Part shown: positions 32,480-40,628 of the stretch, in pieces | Position numbering within the stretch: the first letter of the stretch is position 1 | How the letters are laid out: every line of letters starts with the position of its first letter | Position numbers and translations under genes: made by a program | The notes under the pieces: generated by a model | The model's database searches: none | Told to the model about the DNA's origin: nothing | The model's input: only the letters and a program-made list of their open reading frames with translations | Source: Methylopila jiangsuensis | GTDB lineage: Bacteria > Pseudomonadota > Alphaproteobacteria > Rhizobiales > Methylopilaceae | Direction of reading: 5' to 3' | Assembly: GCF_027922305.1 (NCBI RefSeq) | Contig: NZ_BSFK01000010.1 | Location: forward strand, 62,001-126,000 | DNA: 64,000 nt

Positions 32480-32715
32480 GGCGCGCTCCTTGAGGCCGGT
32501 GACATGGCGGCCGGGCGCACACGTTGGAGGCGTCCGGCGGGTGGCGCTATCCATACCAAGGATTGCGTCCCTGATGGGGCGCCGGCGCGGCATGGTGTCT
32601 GAACGCGCCTCGCGGCGGGGCGGAGGCCGTTTCCGCTCCCGACGTCATTGAGACGCCGGAGAAGGCAAGCGATGGAGGGCCGCAAGCGGTCCGCATCAAG
32701 ACAATGCCGGGATGG

Positions 32716-32823
32716 AAAAAAGAAAAGGCGGAACCGCCTCGGGGGGAGCGGTTCCGCCTCTGCGCAAGGCGCGCCGGTCGGGGGGGCCGGTGGCCTTTTG
32801 GAAGGCTCGTTGCGAGCTTTCAG
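32716..32823 (-). ncRNA. Predicted stress-induced sRNA with two C-rich loops (GsrN-like design)
   Basis: Starting about 7 nt after a GGAAC-N16-CGTT promoter and ending in a T-tract, this predicts an RNA of about 107 nt. On the minus strand it forms: a small hairpin GCTCG-CAA-CGAGC; a GCCTT/AAGGC hairpin; a hairpin with CCGG arms (32774-32777, 32787-32790) around a loop of seven C plus GA; and a 12-bp terminator stem (32726-32737 with 32748-32759) whose loop holds six C, followed by TTTCTTTTTT. C-rich loops can pair with purine-rich ribosome binding sites. Caulobacter GsrN is a sigmaT-dependent sRNA of this size class with a C-rich loop. Homology is inferred from design, not alignment. Confidence 0.6.
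32726..32759 (-). terminator. Strong Rho-independent terminator of the sRNA candidate
   Basis: A perfect 12-bp stem (AGGCGGAACCGC) with a 10-nt loop containing six C on the minus strand, followed by TTTCTTTTTT. It could also end read-through from the hydrolase-like gene at 32883. Confidence 0.85.
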
Positions 32824-32829
32824 CCAACA

Positions 32830-32854
32830 AACGCGGGGCCGGAGGTTCGGTTCC
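32830..32854 (-). promoter_or_regulatory. Predicted EcfG (general stress response) promoter
   Basis: On the minus strand GGAAC (32854-32850) and CGTT (32833-32830) are separated by exactly 16 bp. This is the consensus of alphaproteobacterial EcfG/SigT promoters. No coding gene follows on this strand within the next 350 bp, only the sRNA candidate. Confidence 0.65.
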
Positions 32855-32860
32855 CGCCCC

Positions 32861-32883
32861 ATCCGTTTTTTTACGGATTTTTT
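32861..32883 (+). terminator. U-rich hairpin facing the hydrolase-like gene
   Basis: ATCCGT-TTTTTT-ACGGAT followed by TTTTT on the plus strand, ending at the stop codon of the minus-strand gene. It could stop plus-strand transcription entering that gene. No plus-strand gene lies upstream, so its function is unclear. The stem is only 6 bp. Confidence 0.45.
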
Positions 32884-33653
32884 CAGCGCACCGGCGGCGC
32901 CGTGCCCAGCCGGCTTTCCAGGAAGGCGATGGCGCGGTCCCAGGCCAGCTCGGCGGGGCGCCGGGCGTAGGCTTCCGGCTTGTCCGCGTCCTCGAAGCCA
33001 TGGGCCGCGCCTTCGTAAAGGAACAGCTCGAAGGTCTTCTCCTCCGCCTCCAGGGCCTTCTTGAAGGCCGGGATCGTGGCGGTCACGGCGTCGTCCAGCC
33101 CGGCGTAGTGCAGTTGAAGCGGGGCCTCCGCCCGCTCCGCCACCGCCTCGCTTCCGCGCCCGTCATAGGCGACCACGGCCTTCACCTGCGTCAGCGCCGC
33201 GAGCCGCAGGGCTCCGTCGGCGCCCGCGCCGAAGCCGAACACGCCTACGTCGCCCTTGGACTCCAGATGATGGGCGAGATAGGCCACGGCGCGGCCGAGC
33301 GCTTCGTCGCCGTCAGCGGGTGGGGTCTCCACCGCAAGCACCAGAAAACCCGCGACCGCCAGCCGGCGCGCCACGTCCTCGCGGTGCGGCGTGAGGCCGT
33401 CGACGTCGGGCAGGATCAGCACCGCCGGCCGCTTGGTCTCGGTTTTTCCCCGCGCGATCAGGCCGGCGACGCCCGCCTGCTCCGCAGTGACCCGCTCGGT
33501 CTCCAGCCGTCGGTCGTCGGGCGAGACCACCGCCGCGCCCGCGGCGACGGCGCCCAAAGCGCAGAACCCGAGCGCCGCCGCGAGCACGCTTCGGCGATCG
33601 GGGCTCCGGACAGGATCGGACACGCCGTCACGGCGCGGTGCTGAGACGGTCAT
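32883..33653 (-). CDS. Dienelactone-hydrolase-like exported protein lacking the nucleophile
   Basis: 256 residues from the ATG at 33653, with an N-terminal twin-arginine-like signal (DRRSVLAAALGFCALGAVAAG). The alpha/beta-hydrolase fold of the DLH family is clear: PAVLILPDVDGLTPHREDVA, VAYLAHHL, FLYEGAAHGFEDAD. The nucleophile elbow, normally G-x-C-x-G, reads GFGAGADG with Gly in the Cys position, while the His of AAHGF and an Asp in YAGLDDAV remain. It is thus probably not a normal esterase; a binding role or a different chemistry is possible. Confidence 0.82.
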   Translation of the reverse strand: MTVSAPRRDGVSDPVRSPDRRSVLAAALGFCALGAVAAGAAVVSPDDRRLETERVTAEQAGVAGLIARGKTETKRPAVLILPDVDGLTPHREDVARRLAVAGFLVLAVETPPADGDEALGRAVAYLAHHLESKGDVGVFGFGAGADGALRLAALTQVKAVVAYDGRGSEAVAERAEAPLQLHYAGLDDAVTATIPAFKKALEAEEKTFELFLYEGAAHGFEDADKPEAYARRPAELAWDRAIAFLESRLGTAPPVR

Positions 33654-33726
33654 CGCGAATCCTCGCATGCGCATGAGTGAGGGCCAGCCTACACGACCCG
33701 CGGGCCGGAGCGCCGTCACGGAGCCG

Positions 33727-34284
33727 TCAGCGCGGCGGCTGGACCGAGCGCGCCACCGCCTCGAACTCGGCGCGGTGCTGGTCGAACTGCTCCTTCGCCG
33801 TCACGCAGACCACGGTGGTTCGCCCGCGCGGCGTGTCCAGCAGCACGAAATAGGAACGGGCGTTCGCATTGGCGGGCGGCTGGCCTTCCGCCGGCTTGAT
33901 GTCGCCCACCACCGCCGCGCCGGCGAGGCCTCCCTGCTCGAACGGCTCCACGCTCACCACGTCGTAATAGAGCGCAAGCGTCGCCCGGATCAGGTCGTTC
34001 CACTCCTTCTTGGCGGTGAAGGCGTTGATCTGGTCCTGGGTCAGGCCGGCGTTCTGCGGGCTTTCCTGGAAGCCGACCCGGCAGCCGGGCTCTGACGGGT
34101 CGGGCTTGCGGATGTCGAACGCAGCGGCGTAGCGCTGACCGGCGTCGGTGCGATGAGCGGCGTAGCCGGGAGGCGGATCGACGGCGAGACCGGTGGCCTC
34201 GTCGCGCGCGGGCTCCGCCAGCGCCGGCGCGCACAGCAGGACGCCTGCGGCCAGAACGCTCACGCGCAAGAATCGGACCGCCAT
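33727..34284 (-). CDS. Exported protein of unknown function
   Basis: 185 residues with a clean signal peptide (VSVLAAGVLLCAPALA) and a mature domain beginning DEATGLAVDPPPGYAAHR. Two cysteines (PGCRVGF, VVCVTAKEQF) could pair. The arrangement (a short conserved start, a beta-rich core, SYFVLLDTPRGRTTVVCVT, then a C-terminal helix EFEAVARSVQPPR) recalls secreted alphaproteobacterial proteins of unknown role. ATG at 34284 is favoured over earlier frames because it directly precedes the signal. A separate gene 73 bp downstream runs in the same direction. Confidence 0.75.
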   Translation of the reverse strand: MAVRFLRVSVLAAGVLLCAPALAEPARDEATGLAVDPPPGYAAHRTDAGQRYAAAFDIRKPDPSEPGCRVGFQESPQNAGLTQDQINAFTAKKEWNDLIRATLALYYDVVSVEPFEQGGLAGAAVVGDIKPAEGQPPANANARSYFVLLDTPRGRTTVVCVTAKEQFDQHRAEFEAVARSVQPPR

Positions 34285-34404
34285 CAGGTGCTCCACGATA
34301 CGCCTGCGCCGCCGTCCGACGCCCTTGGCGCGGCAGTCTAGCGACGGCCCGCGCCCGCGCAATGCGCCCCACGACGAAGGACGCGCCGCCGCCGCGTCGA
34401 AACG

Positions 34405-34451: not shown

Positions 34452-36143
34452 TCAGGGGTGGGCGCTCGCCACGCCGCCGATCGGGGCGGGCTCCGCCTTC
34501 GGGGTCTCGTCCGGCGAGGCGCGGGTCACCGAGCGGCGCTCGGCGTCGATGCGGTCGATGAGGAAGAGCGCGCGCTCGGCGCTGCCGAGCAGGGCCAGGA
34601 TGGCGCCGCGCTCCGACCATTCGATGTCCGTGGTCGCCCGCAGCGCCTTTTCCCGCATCGCCAGCAGGAAGGCCTCGCCGGCGCCGAGCGCCGCGGAGCG
34701 GCCGGCGTCCTCGCGGGCGGCGAGGAGAGGCGCCATGGCGGCCTCCACGCGGGCGAGCATGGCGTCGACGATCTCGCGCCCGGCGGCGGAGAATGGCTCG
34801 CGCTTCACCCGGCGGGCGATCTGGTGGAGCGTTTCGCCGAGGCTCGCGGTGAAGTCCTCCTCCTCGATCAGGCTCGCCAGCAGGTCGCTGCGGCCGTAGC
34901 CCAGATCGGGCCGGAACATGGCGGAGGTGTAGCGCCGGATCTCCCGGTTCAGGATGTCCATGGCCGCGGCGTGCTCCTCCACGTCGTCCGGGGCGTCCTT
35001 GGCGCCGCGGGCGATGTCGATGAAGCGGGAGGCCGCCTGGAGGTAGCGCCCGGTCTCGGCCTGCACCGCGGGCAGGCCCGTGGACAACGCGCCGTCGTGG
35101 CGCGGATCGAGGAACTTCGGCTGGCTGTAATCCTCGATGTCGTCGACGGCGGACGCGCCGACCCGCGACAGCACCCGCTCGAACATGCCGATGAAGGGGA
35201 ACAGCAGCGCGGTGTTGAAGATGTTGAACACGGTCGAATAGACGCCGACCGCGATCGGCACCAGCGGATAGGTGACCTCGCCGTTGGGCGCGGTGGACGG
35301 CGCGCCGGGGTCGCCGATGAAGTAGACCAGAAGCTGGCAGGCCAGCGGGAACAGCGGCAGCATCACCGCCACGCCGATGAAGTTGAACGAGATGTGGGCG
35401 TAGGCCGCGCGCTTGGCGTTCTTCGACAGGTTCAGCGAGGCGATGAAGGAGGTGATGGTGGTGCCGAGGTCGGCGCCGAGCGAGAAGGCGAGCGCGGTCT
35501 GCCAGTCGAGCACGCCCGAGGCGCCGAGGCCCATGACGATGCCGATGGTGGCGGAGGAGGAGTGGATCATCGCCGTGATCAGGGCGGCGGTGACGACGCA
35601 GCGCAGGATGCCGCCATAGGTGTCGGCGTTCAGGGTCGAGATGACGTCCATCACCTCGGGAATGTTGCGCAGCGGCTTGAGGCCGCCGGTCATCATGGAG
35701 AGGCCGTAGAAGATCAGCGCGAAGCCCATGAGGGCGAGCGCGACGTTGCGGACCGAGTCCTTCTTGGCGAACACGTAGACCAGCGCCGCGAAGCCCGCCA
35801 CCAGCAGGCCGTAGAGGCCAAGCGGCAGCGCGATCAGCGTGTTGGTCAGCGTGGTGCCGATGTTGGCGCCCATGATCACGCTGATCGCGGGGCGCAGGCC
35901 CATCACGCCGGCGTTGACGAGGCCGACCACCATCACGGTCATGGCGGTGGAGGACTGGATGACGCCGGTGATGAGCGTGCCGGCGGCGAGGCCCTTGATG
36001 GGCGTGCCCGCCACCCGGCCGAGCACGGAGCGCATGCGGTTCACCGCCAGCGCCTGAATGCCGTTCGACATGAACTCCAGCCCCAGCATGAAGATGCCGA
36101 GGCCGCCGATCACCGGAACGATGATGTCCTTGAAGATGTCCAT
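34452..36143 (-). CDS. Na/Pi cotransporter family protein with PhoU-like C-terminus
   Basis: 563 residues. The membrane part (about 1-320) carries the duplicated NptA/SLC34 signature: GVIQSSTAMTVMVVGLVNAG and MIHSSSATIGIVMGLG, both with the QSS/HSSS-type substrate motif. The cytoplasmic part (about 350-540) is helical and PhoU-like. Such proteins couple sodium and phosphate movement, often as exporters or low-affinity importers. It ends at a good terminator. A weak PHO-box-like element lies 65-80 bp upstream. Confidence 0.92.
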   Translation of the reverse strand: MDIFKDIIVPVIGGLGIFMLGLEFMSNGIQALAVNRMRSVLGRVAGTPIKGLAAGTLITGVIQSSTAMTVMVVGLVNAGVMGLRPAISVIMGANIGTTLTNTLIALPLGLYGLLVAGFAALVYVFAKKDSVRNVALALMGFALIFYGLSMMTGGLKPLRNIPEVMDVISTLNADTYGGILRCVVTAALITAMIHSSSATIGIVMGLGASGVLDWQTALAFSLGADLGTTITSFIASLNLSKNAKRAAYAHISFNFIGVAVMLPLFPLACQLLVYFIGDPGAPSTAPNGEVTYPLVPIAVGVYSTVFNIFNTALLFPFIGMFERVLSRVGASAVDDIEDYSQPKFLDPRHDGALSTGLPAVQAETGRYLQAASRFIDIARGAKDAPDDVEEHAAAMDILNREIRRYTSAMFRPDLGYGRSDLLASLIEEEDFTASLGETLHQIARRVKREPFSAAGREIVDAMLARVEAAMAPLLAAREDAGRSAALGAGEAFLLAMREKALRATTDIEWSERGAILALLGSAERALFLIDRIDAERRSVTRASPDETPKAEPAPIGGVASAHP

Positions 36144-36206
36144 GTAAGCCTTCCCCCCGATCGCCGGCGGGACCGGCGCGTCAGGGGGAGACGTACTTTA
36201 ACTTTG

Positions 36207-36238: not shown

Positions 36239-36436
36239 TCAGCGCCCTTGCGGAACCGCGACGCGAGACGCCGCATGGTCGTTCTGGTTGGCCGGACGCG
36301 CCGGGCGGCACATGCGGGCGAGCGCTCCGCGACGCGGCGCTTCGACGCCGGCGGCGGCGAGCGCGACCTCGCGTTCCAGCAGATCGCCGAGCCGGCCTGA
36401 AGCGTAGGCGGAACGGATGTCCTCGAGCAACGTCAC
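36239..36436 (-). CDS. Small ORF coupled to the anti-sigma factor gene
   Basis: A 65-residue ORF starting MTLLEDIRSAYASGRLGDLL. Its ATG overlaps the anti-sigma stop codon as ATGA, the usual sign of a real cotranslated gene. It has no signal peptide or membrane segment; the first half is helical and acidic and the second half basic (RMCRPARPANQN). I recognise no family. Confidence 0.55.
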   Translation of the reverse strand: MTLLEDIRSAYASGRLGDLLEREVALAAAGVEAPRRGALARMCRPARPANQNDHAASRVAVPQGR

Positions 36437-37251
36437 GGCCGCGCCCCCGGCTTGGTCTTGTAGGGATCGAGCTTTCCGGCGAAACGCTGGGCGCGCGCCA
36501 GAAGTTCCTCGCCGCGGTGCTGGGCGACGAGGGTGTAGGCGACATCGGCCACCTGCCAGTAGGCGGCCTGCGCCCCTTCCATGGCGCGCACCACCGGCGC
36601 CTCCATGTCGAACACGCCGGGCCGCACGGCGTAGAACGAGATCAGACCCAGGTCGGGCGTCTCGATCGCCATCTGCAGGCTCGGTCCGTATTTGGACGGG
36701 AACACCTGCGCGTCGAGCACCTTCCAGTCCCGGGGCAGCTTCGGCACCACGATGGCCGTGGCGGCGCGCACCTCGTCGCGGTCGAACTCCGGCGTCTCCA
36801 CCTGCGAGCGCATGCCCGCCCGCAGCAGAGCGGTGCGATGGGACATGACCGCGTCCGACACATAGGCCGGGGCCTGGGGATAGGCGAACACCGTGCCGAT
36901 CAGCAGCGGGCCGAGCGCCGCGTTCGCCGCCCAGCCGGCGCCCACCAGCAGAGCCGCGGCCGCCGCCCGCTTCAGCCCGACCACCATGCGCGTCCGCGAC
37001 CGCGAGCCCTGCAGCCGACGGGCAAGCCGTTCGGTGCGCTTCCGAACCAGCGGAGCGGGCGGGATTTCGGGTTCGCCGCCGAACGCCGCGCGCAATTCGT
37101 CCCTCAGGCGCAGCGCGTCCATCACCCGGCTCGCAAGCGGCGGGTTCCGCGCCAGCAGAGCTTCGATCTCGATCCGGCGGTCGAGGTCCATCTGCCCGTC
37201 CACATAGGCGTCGATTTCCGCGTCGAGGATCGGCTCAGCCGTCGTGACCAT
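36433..37251 (-). CDS. Transmembrane anti-sigma factor
   Basis: 272 residues. The cytoplasmic N-terminus (ILDAEIDAYVDGQMDLDRRIEIEALLARNPPL) has the anti-sigma domain form without the zinc-binding HxxxCxxC motif. A membrane helix near residues 93-118 (AAAAALLVGAGWAANAALGP) leads to a periplasmic domain of about 150 residues (LPRDWKVLDAQVFPSKYGPS). It overlaps the sigma gene by 17 bp, so the pair is translationally coupled. The inducing signal is unknown. Confidence 0.85.
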   Translation of the reverse strand: MVTTAEPILDAEIDAYVDGQMDLDRRIEIEALLARNPPLASRVMDALRLRDELRAAFGGEPEIPPAPLVRKRTERLARRLQGSRSRTRMVVGLKRAAAAALLVGAGWAANAALGPLLIGTVFAYPQAPAYVSDAVMSHRTALLRAGMRSQVETPEFDRDEVRAATAIVVPKLPRDWKVLDAQVFPSKYGPSLQMAIETPDLGLISFYAVRPGVFDMEAPVVRAMEGAQAAYWQVADVAYTLVAQHRGEELLARAQRFAGKLDPYKTKPGARP

Positions 37252-37792
37252 CGGTTCCTCTCACAATGCGAAGATGGGCGCCGGGGCGCGGACGCGCCTC
37301 TCCGGCGTCGTGGCGTCGGAGCGTCTCCCGCGCGCGGGCGAGACGCGACATCAGCGTGCCGACCGGCGCGCCGACCACCGCCGCGGCGTCGGCGTAGGAC
37401 AGGCCTTCAACCGCGACGAGATGCAGCGCCGCGCGCTGGTCTTCGGGCAGCGCCCGGAAGCGCGCCCGCACCTCGGCGAGGCGGATGGAGTGCTCCTGAG
37501 CCGGCGGCTCATGGGTGTGTGCGACCTCGCCCGCCGCGGCGATGCGGATCAGCTCCGCCCGTCGGCTGCGGACGCCGTCCACGAAGACGTTGTGCAGGAT
37601 GGCGAGCAGCCAGGCGCGAAGGTCGCGCGTCACGTCGAAGGCGGCGCGGCGGTCGTAGGCGCGCACCAGCGCGTCCTGCACCAGATCCTCCGCGTCCGAC
37701 GGATCCCGCGTCAGCGCGAGCGCGTACCGCCTGAGAACAGGCAGTTCGCCGATCACGTCGAAGTCCGCGGAAGCGCGTGTCATGCCGGGCAT
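37235..37792 (-). CDS. ECF-family RNA polymerase sigma factor
   Basis: About 185 residues with sigma region 2 (YALALTRDPSDAEDLVQDAL, AWLLAILHNVFVDGVRSRR) and region 4 (RALPEDQRAALHLVAVEGLS, GTLMSRLARARETLRR). It is associated with a membrane anti-sigma factor rather than NepR/PhyR. Starts at 37792 or 37783 are both possible; neither has a strong Shine-Dalgarno. It begins 41 bp after the bacteriophytochrome stop in the same direction. Confidence 0.92.
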   Translation of the reverse strand: MPGMTRASADFDVIGELPVLRRYALALTRDPSDAEDLVQDALVRAYDRRAAFDVTRDLRAWLLAILHNVFVDGVRSRRAELIRIAAAGEVAHTHEPPAQEHSIRLAEVRARFRALPEDQRAALHLVAVEGLSYADAAAVVGAPVGTLMSRLARARETLRRHDAGEARPRPGAHLRIVRGTDGHDG

Positions 37793-37833
37793 ACGGAGCA
37801 GGAGGGCCGCTTCATCCCTGCCGGCGTCATTTT

Positions 37834-40395
37834 TTATTCCGCCCCGTCGGGTCTCCACGCGCGGAGGATCGCGGCGATCAGCGCGTCGGCCTCATAGGGC
37901 TTGCGCACCACCGGCACGTGGGAAAAATCCGGCGGGATCATCGACCGGTCGCCATACCCCGTGGCGAAGATGAACGGCACGCCCCGCAGCGCCAGCGCTT
38001 CGGCCACCGGCAGCGAGGTGCCGGCGCCCAGATTGACGTCGAGCACCGCCACGTCCGGCCGGAAAGTCTCGAGCTTGCGCAGGGCCTCCGCAGCCGATGC
38101 GCTCGTGGAGATGGACAGCGCTCCGCGCTTCGCGAGCAGCTCCTCCACGTTCATGGCGATCAGGAGCTGGTCCTCGACCAGAAGCACCGACAGGTCGCTC
38201 AGGGTCGTCTCGGCGGGAAGCGCGGGAGCGGCGACGCGCACGGAGGCCGGCCCGTCCCGCATCGCCCCGCGGCCTTCCGCCGACGACACATGGCGGGATG
38301 GAAGCAGCAGGCGCGCCTGCACCCCGTCCGGCAGATAGCGCACGTCGCTTTCGCCGCCGAGATCGTAAGGAATGCTGCGGTCCACCAGCACGGTGCCGAA
38401 GCCTTCGCGGGTGGGCGGCGCCACCGCCGGGCCGCCGGATTCCCGCCACAGGATTTCGCAGTCGCCGGTCTCCGTCCGCCGCCACGACACGTCGAGCCGT
38501 CCCCCGCTCCGGGAGAGGGCGCCATATTTGGCGGCGTTGGTGGAGAGCTCGTGCAGCACCAGCGCCATCACCGAAAAGGCGCGCGCATCGAGCCAGATGT
38601 CGTCGCCGCTGCAGACGATCTGGGCGGCGGGCTCGCGATAGGGAGACACTTCGGCCGCCACCAGCGCCGAAAGCCGACCGCCGCCGTCGCCCCGCACCAC
38701 CTGATCATGGGCGAAAGCCAACGCCTGGATGCGGCCCTTCAGCGACGTGACGTAATCGGCCAGCTCCTGCCCGTCCGCGGCCGGACGTCCCACCAGCGAT
38801 TTGATGATCGCGAGGATGTTCTTGACCCGGTGGTTCAGTTCTTCGTTCAGCATGCGCTGGCGCACGTCGGCCTTGTTGCGTTCGTCCTGCAGCAGCTCGC
38901 TGTGGCGCAGCGCGATCTCCACCAGCGCCGAGCGCGCCGCCTCTGCGGTTTCGCGGTCCGCCTCGGACCACGGCCGGGCCTGAAGCCGCACCGTCTCCTT
39001 CCAGATGTCGAAACTCTTGCGCGGGGTCAGCCGGTCGCCGAGCGGGCCGGTGGAGTAGATCTTGTCGGGGTTTCCCGCCCAGTCGAGCGTCTGCACCAGC
39101 TCCTTGCGGAAGAAGAACAGATAATCGCGCGGCCGCTGGGACAGCGGAACCGCCATGGCGCCCGCGGCCTCGGCGCTGAAGTCTTCCGCGCCGGGAACGA
39201 CCTGCGTCAGGCAATGCGACGCGTAGATCGCGCCCTCTCCCGCCTCGGCCGCCAGCGCCACAAGCCGCGCCACCGCGTCGCGGGGCGGCGTAGACCCCTC
39301 CGCCGTCCATTCTCCGTTCATCCAGAGCCCGACGCCGTCGCAGGGAACCAGGCGGGCGATGGACGCGAGGCTCTCGCGCACTGCGGCGCCTACGTCCTGA
39401 TGATGAGAGGCGAGACGCAACACGCCGTCCAATGCGCGGCGGGCGTCCGCTGCGGTGCTGAGCTTGCGCTTGTGCTTCAGCGCCTCAAGCGTCAGCGAGA
39501 AGAACTCGCCGAACATTTCCGCCGCCACCCGCTCGGGCATCGGCAGCACCCGCGGCGAATAATGATGACAGGCGATGAGGCCCCACAATTCGCCGCCGAC
39601 GATGATGGAGATCGACATGGACGCCGCGACGCCCATGTTGCGCAGATACTCGCAATGGATCGGCGACACGCTGCGCAGATGCGCGAAGGACAGGTCCAAC
39701 GGCTCGCCGGAGGCGTCCAGCATCGGGACAAGCGGAGAGCGGGCTCCCGACGCGTCCGAGATCACGCGGATGGTGTTGCGCAGGTAGAGCGCGCGCGCCT
39801 GCTGCGGGATGTCGCCGGCCGGAAAATACTGTCCGTAAAAGCTTTCGAGGTCCGGGCGCTTGGCTTCCGCCACGACCCGTCCGGAGCCGTCCGCCTCCAT
39901 GTGGTAGATCATCACCCGGTCGTAGCCGGCGATGGCCCGCACCAGCCGCGCCGCCGAGGCGACGAGCCGCTCCGGGGCGTCCGCCTCGCGGATGCGGCCG
40001 ATCAGCATGCGCGACAGCTCCAGCGGCTGCCGGGTCTCGGCTGCGGCCGGCTCGAACTCGGCGATGGACACGCCCTTGAAGCGGTGGACGGCCACGTCGA
40101 ACGCGCGACCGTGGACGGCGACGTCGAAGGCGAGCGCCGGGCGGGACGCGTCCGCCGCGGCGGCGAGCGCATTGCGCACCGTGTGCGCGGCCTCGGGGCC
40201 GATCACGTCCTCCAGGGGACGGCCGATGGCCTCGCCGCGGAGGCTGAGCATCTCTTCGGCGTTCTCCGAGCGTCGCAGCACCACGCCCGCCGCCGCGTCG
40301 CAGGCGAGCAGGCAGCCGTGGGGCTGGATGCTGCCCGGAATGTGGATCGGCTCCCGATCGCAGTTGGTGAGATCGACGCTGTAGGGATAGGTCAT
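37834..40395 (-). CDS. Bacteriophytochrome with HWE histidine kinase and C-terminal receiver
   Basis: 853 residues: PAS with the biliverdin-attachment Cys12 (VDLTNCDREPIHIPGSIQPH), GAF (about 140-310, PAGDIPQQARALYLRNTIRV), PHY (about 320-500), an HWE/HisKA2 kinase with the His in LNEELNHRVKN near residue 519, and a receiver with phospho-Asp near residue 786 (VAVLDVNLG). It senses red/far-red light through biliverdin. A nine-residue tandem duplication AFDVAVHGR/AFDVAVHRF sits in the PAS domain. The start at 40395 leaves Cys12 at the expected place. No haem oxygenase gene is adjacent. Confidence 0.93.
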   Translation of the reverse strand: MTYPYSVDLTNCDREPIHIPGSIQPHGCLLACDAAAGVVLRRSENAEEMLSLRGEAIGRPLEDVIGPEAAHTVRNALAAAADASRPALAFDVAVHGRAFDVAVHRFKGVSIAEFEPAAAETRQPLELSRMLIGRIREADAPERLVASAARLVRAIAGYDRVMIYHMEADGSGRVVAEAKRPDLESFYGQYFPAGDIPQQARALYLRNTIRVISDASGARSPLVPMLDASGEPLDLSFAHLRSVSPIHCEYLRNMGVAASMSISIIVGGELWGLIACHHYSPRVLPMPERVAAEMFGEFFSLTLEALKHKRKLSTAADARRALDGVLRLASHHQDVGAAVRESLASIARLVPCDGVGLWMNGEWTAEGSTPPRDAVARLVALAAEAGEGAIYASHCLTQVVPGAEDFSAEAAGAMAVPLSQRPRDYLFFFRKELVQTLDWAGNPDKIYSTGPLGDRLTPRKSFDIWKETVRLQARPWSEADRETAEAARSALVEIALRHSELLQDERNKADVRQRMLNEELNHRVKNILAIIKSLVGRPAADGQELADYVTSLKGRIQALAFAHDQVVRGDGGGRLSALVAAEVSPYREPAAQIVCSGDDIWLDARAFSVMALVLHELSTNAAKYGALSRSGGRLDVSWRRTETGDCEILWRESGGPAVAPPTREGFGTVLVDRSIPYDLGGESDVRYLPDGVQARLLLPSRHVSSAEGRGAMRDGPASVRVAAPALPAETTLSDLSVLLVEDQLLIAMNVEELLAKRGALSISTSASAAEALRKLETFRPDVAVLDVNLGAGTSLPVAEALALRGVPFIFATGYGDRSMIPPDFSHVPVVRKPYEADALIAAILRAWRPDGAE

Positions 40396-40628
40396 TGGGC
40401 GGTGACGAGCGAGGGCGCTTCCCTTTGTCGAGGCGCCATAGGTCACCCCAGAATGATGGTCCAGGCGGTCCGTGCGACGCCGGATACCTTAGGTCTTGAG
40501 GGGCAGATAGGGCGGCCTCGCGCCAAGAAAACGGTCTCCGGACGGACCAGCCCACGTCCGCTGCGCGGTCGCCGCCCCCCACCCACCGCCGCGCGAAGGG
40601 TGTTCCGCAGCCGCAGCGGGATACCCCA

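Follow-up and report, generated by a model that had tools for sequence, protein, structure and literature searches.

Does the intergenic minus-strand DNA that follows a dienelactone-hydrolase-family gene in Methylopila jiangsuensis carry a small RNA (sRNA) gene of the general stress response, and how might such an RNA act? We addressed this question in a window of 64,000 nucleotides (contig NZ_BSFK01000010.1, positions 62,001 to 126,000), whose numbering is used in Table 1. Direct reading of the minus strand bore out the anatomy given in the first-pass annotation, namely a GGAAC-N16-CGTT promoter, an RNA of ~107 nt and a 12-pair terminator, together with loops of seven and six cytosines (CCCCCCCGA and CCCCCCGA). 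The RNA comprises three hairpins with a 3′ end near 32717, and transcription is expected, from the placement of the promoter, to start near 32822-32825, a few nucleotides inside the gene as modelled. The terminator stem contains 12 perfect pairs, or 14-15 when G-U and closing pairs are counted. RNAfold gave -52.4 kcal/mol compared with a mean of -39.6 for shuffled sequences (z = -3.8), with 0 of 200 shuffles equalling it. No sigma-70-type promoter was found within 32600-33000. Immediately upstream of the promoter, at 32861-32878 on the plus strand, there is a weak terminator-like hairpin with a T-tract and no obvious plus-strand gene; many relatives, too, have A/T tracts 11-19 bp upstream of the -35 box, judged by eye.

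Table 1. Positions in the window of the putative sRNA gene, its parts and the two genes used as synteny markers.
Feature	Coordinates	Strand	Basis or remark
EcfG-type promoter, -35 box GGAAC	32850..32854	-	read from sequence; unchanged in 13/13 genus genomes
EcfG-type promoter, -10 box CGTT	32830..32833	-	spacer 16 nt in 13/13 genus genomes
sRNA gene as modelled	32717..32829	-	R1 match (sequence within the R1 training set); 13-genome alignment A2
Hairpin 1, loop GCAAC	32801..32821	-	sequence reading and alignments
Hairpin 2, loop CCCCCCCGA, seven C	32767..32796	-	5/9 pairs changed on both sides (13 species)
First CCCCCGA loop motif (hairpin 2), proposed pairing seed	32778..32784	-	invariant 13/13; C-run unpaired, predicted 0.85
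Hairpin 3 = intrinsic terminator, loop CCCCCCGA, six C	32725..32760	-	sequence reading, alignment, covariation
Second CCCCCGA loop motif (terminator loop)	32739..32745	-	invariant 13/13; C-run unpaired, predicted 0.90
U-rich terminator tail, TTCTTTTT after hairpin 3	32717..32724	-	sequence reading
Dienelactone-hydrolase-family gene, directly upstream, synteny marker	32883..33719	-	PF01738 E 1.2e-24
Uncharacterised protein gene, second synteny marker	33727..34362	-	no Pfam match at 0.001

The promoter box by itself is little proof, since GGAAC-N16-CGTT is not rare in this genome (42 occurrences, compared with 6 for the reversed pattern); its conservation, by contrast, exceeds chance. Our genus set comprised 13 genomes of Methylopila, Hansschlegelia and Chenggangzhangella, the M. 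jiangsuensis genome and 12 others, and the element was present in all 12 others (E 9e-9 to 3e-20). The promoter reads GGAACC...CGTT in every one of the 13, always with a spacer of 16 nt separating GGAAC from CGTT; column identity was 100% in the boxes, compared with an average of 45% over the spacer and 44% over the 20 upstream columns. The heptamer CCCCCGA was invariant in the alignment in both the hairpin 2 and the terminator loops (13/13), and the hairpin 1 loop holds a third copy in three genomes (L005, L009 and L012). The first-pass annotation had staked its reading beforehand on the persistence of promoter and loops in close relatives, and both are kept throughout the set. The five other Methylopilaceae genomes, outside the genus set, yielded a best match of E 6.8e-4 over 30 nt, and none was found in them by R1, a covariance model of the transcript alone that was trained on the genus only.

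The structure shared by the 13 sequences has 31 pairs, with 97.5% of cells paired and eight pairs changed on both sides, and 0 of 500 shuffles matched its paired percentage, double-change counts or covariation score. Further pair types were no better than in shuffles (218/500 as high), and when partners were slid by +3, seven doubly changed pairs still remained (10 cells vs 18) with 46% of cells paired. C-runs of at least five were predicted to be unpaired at ≥0.80 in each of 19 sequences. This conserved, covarying structure in 13 genomes supports, at the sequence level, the claim of an unannotated sRNA gene, and we regard a real EcfG-type sRNA gene at this locus as highly probable. A strict scan of 384 kb from the genus for terminators returned 15 strong ones, of which only three have C5 loops, all of them copies of the sRNA; since only 3 of the 11 sRNA copies present were caught, the scan misses many terminators. 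The 211-nt sRNA region has a single match in its own genome (E ≤ 0.001), for which reason we rejected a dispersed repeat.

Two other readings of the locus were weighed. The first is a cis element, serving either to terminate the hydrolase transcript or as a leader/attenuator for the gene downstream. It would fit the arrangement in the window, where the hydrolase gene immediately precedes the sRNA and both share their strand with the next downstream gene. The hairpins, however, are separated from the hydrolase stop codon by a complete conserved promoter. Moreover, the downstream gene, whose orientation was judged from the top-ranked stop-to-stop ORF and codon-position GC, runs in the same direction only in the window and is convergent with the sRNA in 12/13 genomes, so the sRNA is not its leader. 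Both synteny markers adjoin the sRNA in 12/13 genomes, including that of M. jiangsuensis, yet L004 has the sRNA without a hydrolase gene within 1.5 kb. The hydrolase protein is only 42.7-48.3% identical in the aligned relatives (one split alignment has a 59% piece), so the sRNA loops are held far more tightly than their surroundings.

The second such reading is a small-protein gene. Some short ORF starting with ATG, GTG or TTG exists in every sequence, and subsets share a start (position 3 in 6/13 and an ATG at 66-69 in 5/13) with differing ends; frames and lengths nevertheless vary by species, and conservation tracks base pairs and loops, not codons. No ORF with both a common start and a common end exists across the 13 genomes, which agrees with the earlier statement that the region holds no credible ORF. 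A convergent neighbor and the absence of a common ORF make it most likely that the sRNA neither leads another gene nor codes for a protein. Given its own promoter, the convergent neighbor and the lack of a conserved frame, we therefore rejected the hydrolase terminator, the downstream leader and the small ORF, rating a cis element as very improbable and a small-protein gene as scarcely credible.

We next considered which sigma factor would read the promoter. The first-pass annotation had called it EcfG-type, and the boxes in all 13 genomes equal the sigma-EcfG1 motif of Rhizobium etli, GGAAC-N16-CGTT (PMC3892343). The corresponding regulators are encoded in the genome (nepR, phyR and ecfG); nepR scored above cut-off in 13/13 genus genomes, and phyR and ecfG stand beside it in 3/3 genomes inspected, with PhyR models matching. 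Another ECF sigma factor might instead be the main reader, for example the one encoded at 37235-37858 of the window (best NCBIfam NF009164), which is 33% identical to EcfG, has a PF22029 match as EcfG does and lies 4.4 kb from the sRNA. It had no match at 1e-6, however, in the sRNA-bearing 8-kb stretches of ten named relatives, whereas nepR is present in 13/13, and the boxes exactly equal the published sigma-EcfG1 motif. We judge it quite unlikely that a sigma factor other than EcfG is the main reader, and dependence on EcfG is the predicted mode of transcription. The window's ECF gene and an anti-sigma-like gene (36433-37251, weak NF010501) overlap, and next to the ECF gene a phytochrome HWE histidine kinase carrying a receiver domain is encoded (37834-40446); this cluster (36433-40446) is a possible light input to stress signalling.

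How far does the element extend beyond the genus? A pattern scan of an 84,980-species collection returned 31 stretches: 10 from Methylopilaceae (Methylopila, Hansschlegelia, Chenggangzhangella and one record filed as Chelatococcus), two from Hyphomicrobium, four from Nonomuraea and 15 scattered records that are probably chance matches, judging by lineage and fold. Around Hyphomicrobium facile, a diverged counterpart was found in 6/60 genomes (H. facile and relatives) and was absent from the other 54 at E 0.01; L078 and L159 are the same locus, as are L102 and L158, and each was counted once. These counterparts have an EcfG-type box in 6/6 (spacer 16 or 17 nt). Each of their three hairpins carries a C-rich loop, C5-6 except for C4 in the terminator loop of L161, and the hairpin 1 loop has a C5 run or longer. 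R1 matched five of the six with default filters (32.6-41 bits) and all six at full length without filters (32.3-41 bits). Two loci that lack an EcfG box, L044 and L045, nevertheless scored 35.5 and 32.6 bits with R1, equal to the weaker Hyphomicrobium scores, and antisense readings of the genus terminators reached up to 30 bits. Because scores of C-loop hairpins are thus unspecific, homology across families is only suggestive, and the same holds for common descent of the Hyphomicrobium counterpart with the genus sRNA.

Wider model searches were in keeping with this caution. Against 397 genomes of the order, R1 gave strong matches in the 13 genus genomes and weak ones in 11 others (E 4.5e-5 to 0.006), and none of 16 weak places (those in the 11 other genomes and five second places in genus genomes) has an EcfG box. 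A second model, R2, was trained on alignment A5, which was made with a stricter cut-off and leaves out four antisense terminator readings of alignment A4; A5 was itself fitted to the R1 structure, so pair counts from it are biased toward that structure and were not used as evidence. Against 385 genomes of the class, R2 found 14 places in 13 genomes besides that of M. jiangsuensis, and an EcfG-like box lies just upstream of two (L172 and L173, the latter in the relaxed GGTT form), the same relaxed pattern occurring at 7 of 4,356 random positions. Pooling the R1 and R2 places, for which slightly different box patterns were used, gives an EcfG-like box in 2/30.

Several further elements came to light during these searches. 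Four Nonomuraea species (L082:3517-3641, L091:7167-7292, L099:2751-2876 and L105:6370-6495) have a GGAAC-N16-CGTT box ahead of a pair of hairpins, each with a CCCCCGA loop; this element sits 103-124 bp upstream of the tmRNA gene, faces away from that gene and is possibly an ECF-driven sRNA of Actinobacteria. L047:1501-1601, from a genome of another family that has no NepR match, is an RNA-like element of three hairpins, two of them with CCCCCGA-containing loops, and has no EcfG box. In other families again, L044, L045 and L052 (~1501-1626) have C-rich loop hairpins and terminators, with loops such as CUCUCCUCA and CUCUCCCC and no EcfG box, and are perhaps other sRNA families. L056, L058, L059 and the similar L057 (~1501-1611) carry a repeated C5-loop hairpin with a shared tail containing GATCGGGGATG; this repeat occurs at several places in genus genomes and has a REP-like look. 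Sites with an EcfG box and C-rich loops were also seen in other families near position 1501, or its reverse-strand equivalent, of L125, L129, L107, L123, L172 and L173.

The first-pass annotation likened the RNA to GsrN, which depends on Hfq for its stability and is cleaved to a 5′ isoform. Both RNAs belong to Alphaproteobacteria with a PhyR-NepR-EcfG system. As described for Caulobacter crescentus GsrN (PMC5869019), the two also share an EcfG-type (sigma-T) promoter, a length of ~100 nt, an intrinsic terminator and a C-rich loop, which in GsrN has six tandem cytosines that pair with G-rich leaders. As compared by description, the C-loops of our sRNA lie in hairpins 2 and 3 rather than in the 5′ part, and its terminator loop is C-rich as well; a C-rich 5′ loop is lacking in the window and was seen in 3/13 genus genomes and in the Hyphomicrobium group. 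A similar likeness, by description and not by sequence, holds for R. etli ReC64, a non-coding RNA with the same GGAAC-N16-CGTT promoter for which EcfG dependence has been shown, although ReC64 is placed downstream of phyR-tcrY (PMC3892343) and our sRNA lies elsewhere.

Location bears directly on this comparison. GsrN-like RNAs have been described near the general-stress locus, the typical place being close to phyR/nepR/ecfG, while C. crescentus gsrN itself is elsewhere (PMC5869019). The M. jiangsuensis sRNA is not at that locus either: it and nepR are on different contigs, as in seven of the other genus genomes, and the distance ranges from 153 kb to 2.6 Mb in the five genomes where they share one contig. 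In three Methylopilaceae genomes we inspected the 14-15 kb surrounding nepR and found no GGAAC-N16/17-[CT]GTT. In a blind order-wide scan for an EcfG box with a 16-nt spacer and two C5 runs, 19/397 genomes had a match (7 for the reversed pattern), three within the genus and 16 outside; the pattern demands an early C5 run, which is why it finds just 3 of the 13 genus genomes and misses many. Of the 16 genomes outside the genus, at least 6 have their site no more than 3 kb from nepR or phyR (nepR 1.9-2.8 kb away in G069, G334, G368, G362 and G301; phyR ~1 kb away in G316), a lower bound because nine of the remaining ten were checked for just 1.5 kb on each side. Through these sites the GsrN likeness stands as one of kind, while the location at the locus and the 5′ C-loop do not carry over to our sRNA.

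These data also bear on whether the sRNA is a true orthologue of Caulobacter GsrN/R. etli ReC64 that moved off the general-stress locus in Methylopilaceae and Hyphomicrobium. The promoter type, approximate length, exposed C-rich loops and terminator are alike, and the surroundings of nepR in three Methylopilaceae genomes show no resident GsrN-like gene with an EcfG box, so an RNA off the locus could be a moved counterpart, as C. crescentus gsrN is. C-run sites occupy the locus in other families, some with weak full-length matches to R1 and R2 (E 0.002 and 0.001 for L135, 0.006 and 0.002 for L136, 0.24 and 0.09 for L139, and 0.01 with R2 only for L116). Those sites were chosen for their C5 runs, however, so their scores are inflated, and one of them, L137, matched neither model. 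GsrN, moreover, works through its 5′ C-rich loop (PMC5869019), whereas the 5′ hairpin here has the loop GCAAC, and the katG pairing is not conserved. Orthology is therefore a doubtful, though serious, possibility.

Known RNA families offer a second comparison. At cut-off, Rfam returned no family in the window and nothing but one tRNA in 13 loci of relatives; a separate scan covered H. facile (L102), L078 and L047. Weak resemblances to CC3552 (RF01529; 20.8 bits, cut-off 50) and to the stress-induced CcsR1 with its CCUCCUCCC motif (RF02791; 17.6 bits, cut-off 65.3) do not make the sRNA a member of either. The four matches of a permissive scan of the sRNA region (up to E 10), all of them well under their cut-offs, did not include alpha-r14, which we take to be among the Rfam families. 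The Rhizobiales RNA alpha-r14/NfeR1 (SmelA075; PMC10746234, PMC3927594) shares with ours three hairpins, an anti-Shine-Dalgarno seed repeated in the loops and diverging stems, and its three redundant loop seeds silence mRNAs at their start regions. Its loop motif, however, is CCUCCUCCC in all three loops, where our sRNA has GCAAC, CCCCCCCGA and CCCCCCGA, and its transcription is activated by LsrB and repressed by NtrC (same sources). Considered by its anatomy, our sRNA would be most like a hybrid in which GsrN-type promoter and control are combined with repeated loop seeds of the alpha-r14/NfeR1 type.

Which mRNAs might these loops contact? Pairing of the seven-C loop with katG, which the first-pass annotation put forward for checking, was not upheld: katG had no match in 3/13 genus genomes, including that of M. 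jiangsuensis, and the 260-nt upstream regions of the other ten contain TCGGGG in 0/10 and a run of at least five G in 1/10 (six G), so we rejected katG as a conserved target. The one other candidate leader compared across relatives fared no better. In the window, the best complementary leader is that of an Na/Pi symporter gene (34452-36143), where TCGGGGGGA at 36152-36160, 8 nt before the ATG, is complementary along its whole length to UCCCCCCGA in the terminator loop of the sRNA. This gene is present in 6/13 genomes (E ≤ 1e-40), and in the 70 nt before the match TCGGGGG occurs in 0/5 orthologues, two of which have a four-G run; with the complementary leader kept in none, the symporter too was rejected as a conserved target.

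Counts of potential sites were equally restrained in what they say. TCGGGGG-N2-14-ATG occurs at 64 places genome-wide compared with nine for the reversed pattern, which is a poor control, and in the 64-kb window an ATG follows TCGGGGG in 4/14 cases compared with 154/1037 for 41 other arrangements of the same letters; the window counts are too small, and we claim no target enrichment. Plausible gene starts with such a site, picked by eye and named from their N-terminal sequences, include two TonB-receptor-like proteins, a porin-like and an RTX-like protein, a tricarboxylate transporter and ribosomal protein L5.

Taken together, these observations lead us to favor, as probable, a trans-acting, EcfG-driven sRNA with an antisense mode through its CCCCCGA loops. 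Under stress, PhyR would release EcfG from NepR, and RNA polymerase carrying EcfG would transcribe the ~107-nt sRNA. The RNA would fold into three hairpins, with hairpins 2 and 3 (all three in some relatives) exposing an unpaired CCCCCGA seed on stems free to drift in sequence. The seeds may pair with UCGGGGG-like stretches, the simplest case being stretches that overlap a ribosome-binding site or lie close to one. Pairing would block translation or destabilise the mRNA, repression being the expected outcome rather than activation; the loops would be redundant, as in alpha-r14/NfeR1. We infer this mechanism from the anatomy of the RNA and from its relatives in kind, GsrN and NfeR1. The C-loops could instead bind a protein or another RNA, as a sponge, and not the ribosome-binding sites of mRNAs, given that identical repeated loops on variable stems suit a titrating RNA too and that we found no conserved mRNA target (katG, Na/Pi symporter). 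We know of no protein that binds CCCCCGA, and GsrN and NfeR1/alpha-r14, which have the same layout and likewise come from Alphaproteobacteria, act through base pairing, which makes a sponge an unlikely alternative to the antisense sRNA.

An sRNA driven by EcfG is in itself no rarity: in Sinorhizobium meliloti, a motif for the general-stress sigma factor RpoE2 precedes 23 sRNAs (PMC3616915). GsrN itself has been studied experimentally; outside Caulobacteraceae, relatives of it have been proposed from position, promoter and a few loci (PMC5869019). Among the matches listed for literature on Methylopila, Hansschlegelia and Hyphomicrobium RNAs, on EcfG/RpoE2 sRNAs and on GsrN/ReC64, the titles and abstract openings do not describe the present sRNA. 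What is new here is the joining of GsrN-type control to repeated seeds of the alpha-r14 type, in a promoter-anchored, covarying RNA of methylotrophs that lies off the general-stress locus and presents an invariant CCCCCGA seed two to three times. Because the M. jiangsuensis genome is without katG, the job of the sRNA there must differ from the known activation of katG. More tentatively, the EcfG-driven poly-C-loop RNAs, namely the genus sRNA, the Hyphomicrobium form, the forms at the general-stress locus and GsrN/ReC64, may be one old, fast-drifting family, a riboregulatory arm that is standard in the general stress response of Alphaproteobacteria. Were this so, evolution would have preserved nothing but the promoter and the redundant CCCCC(GA) seeds, with changes in stems, loop positions and genome location. 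The sRNA makes it possible to ask concretely whether C-loop RNAs belong to the regular equipment of that response.
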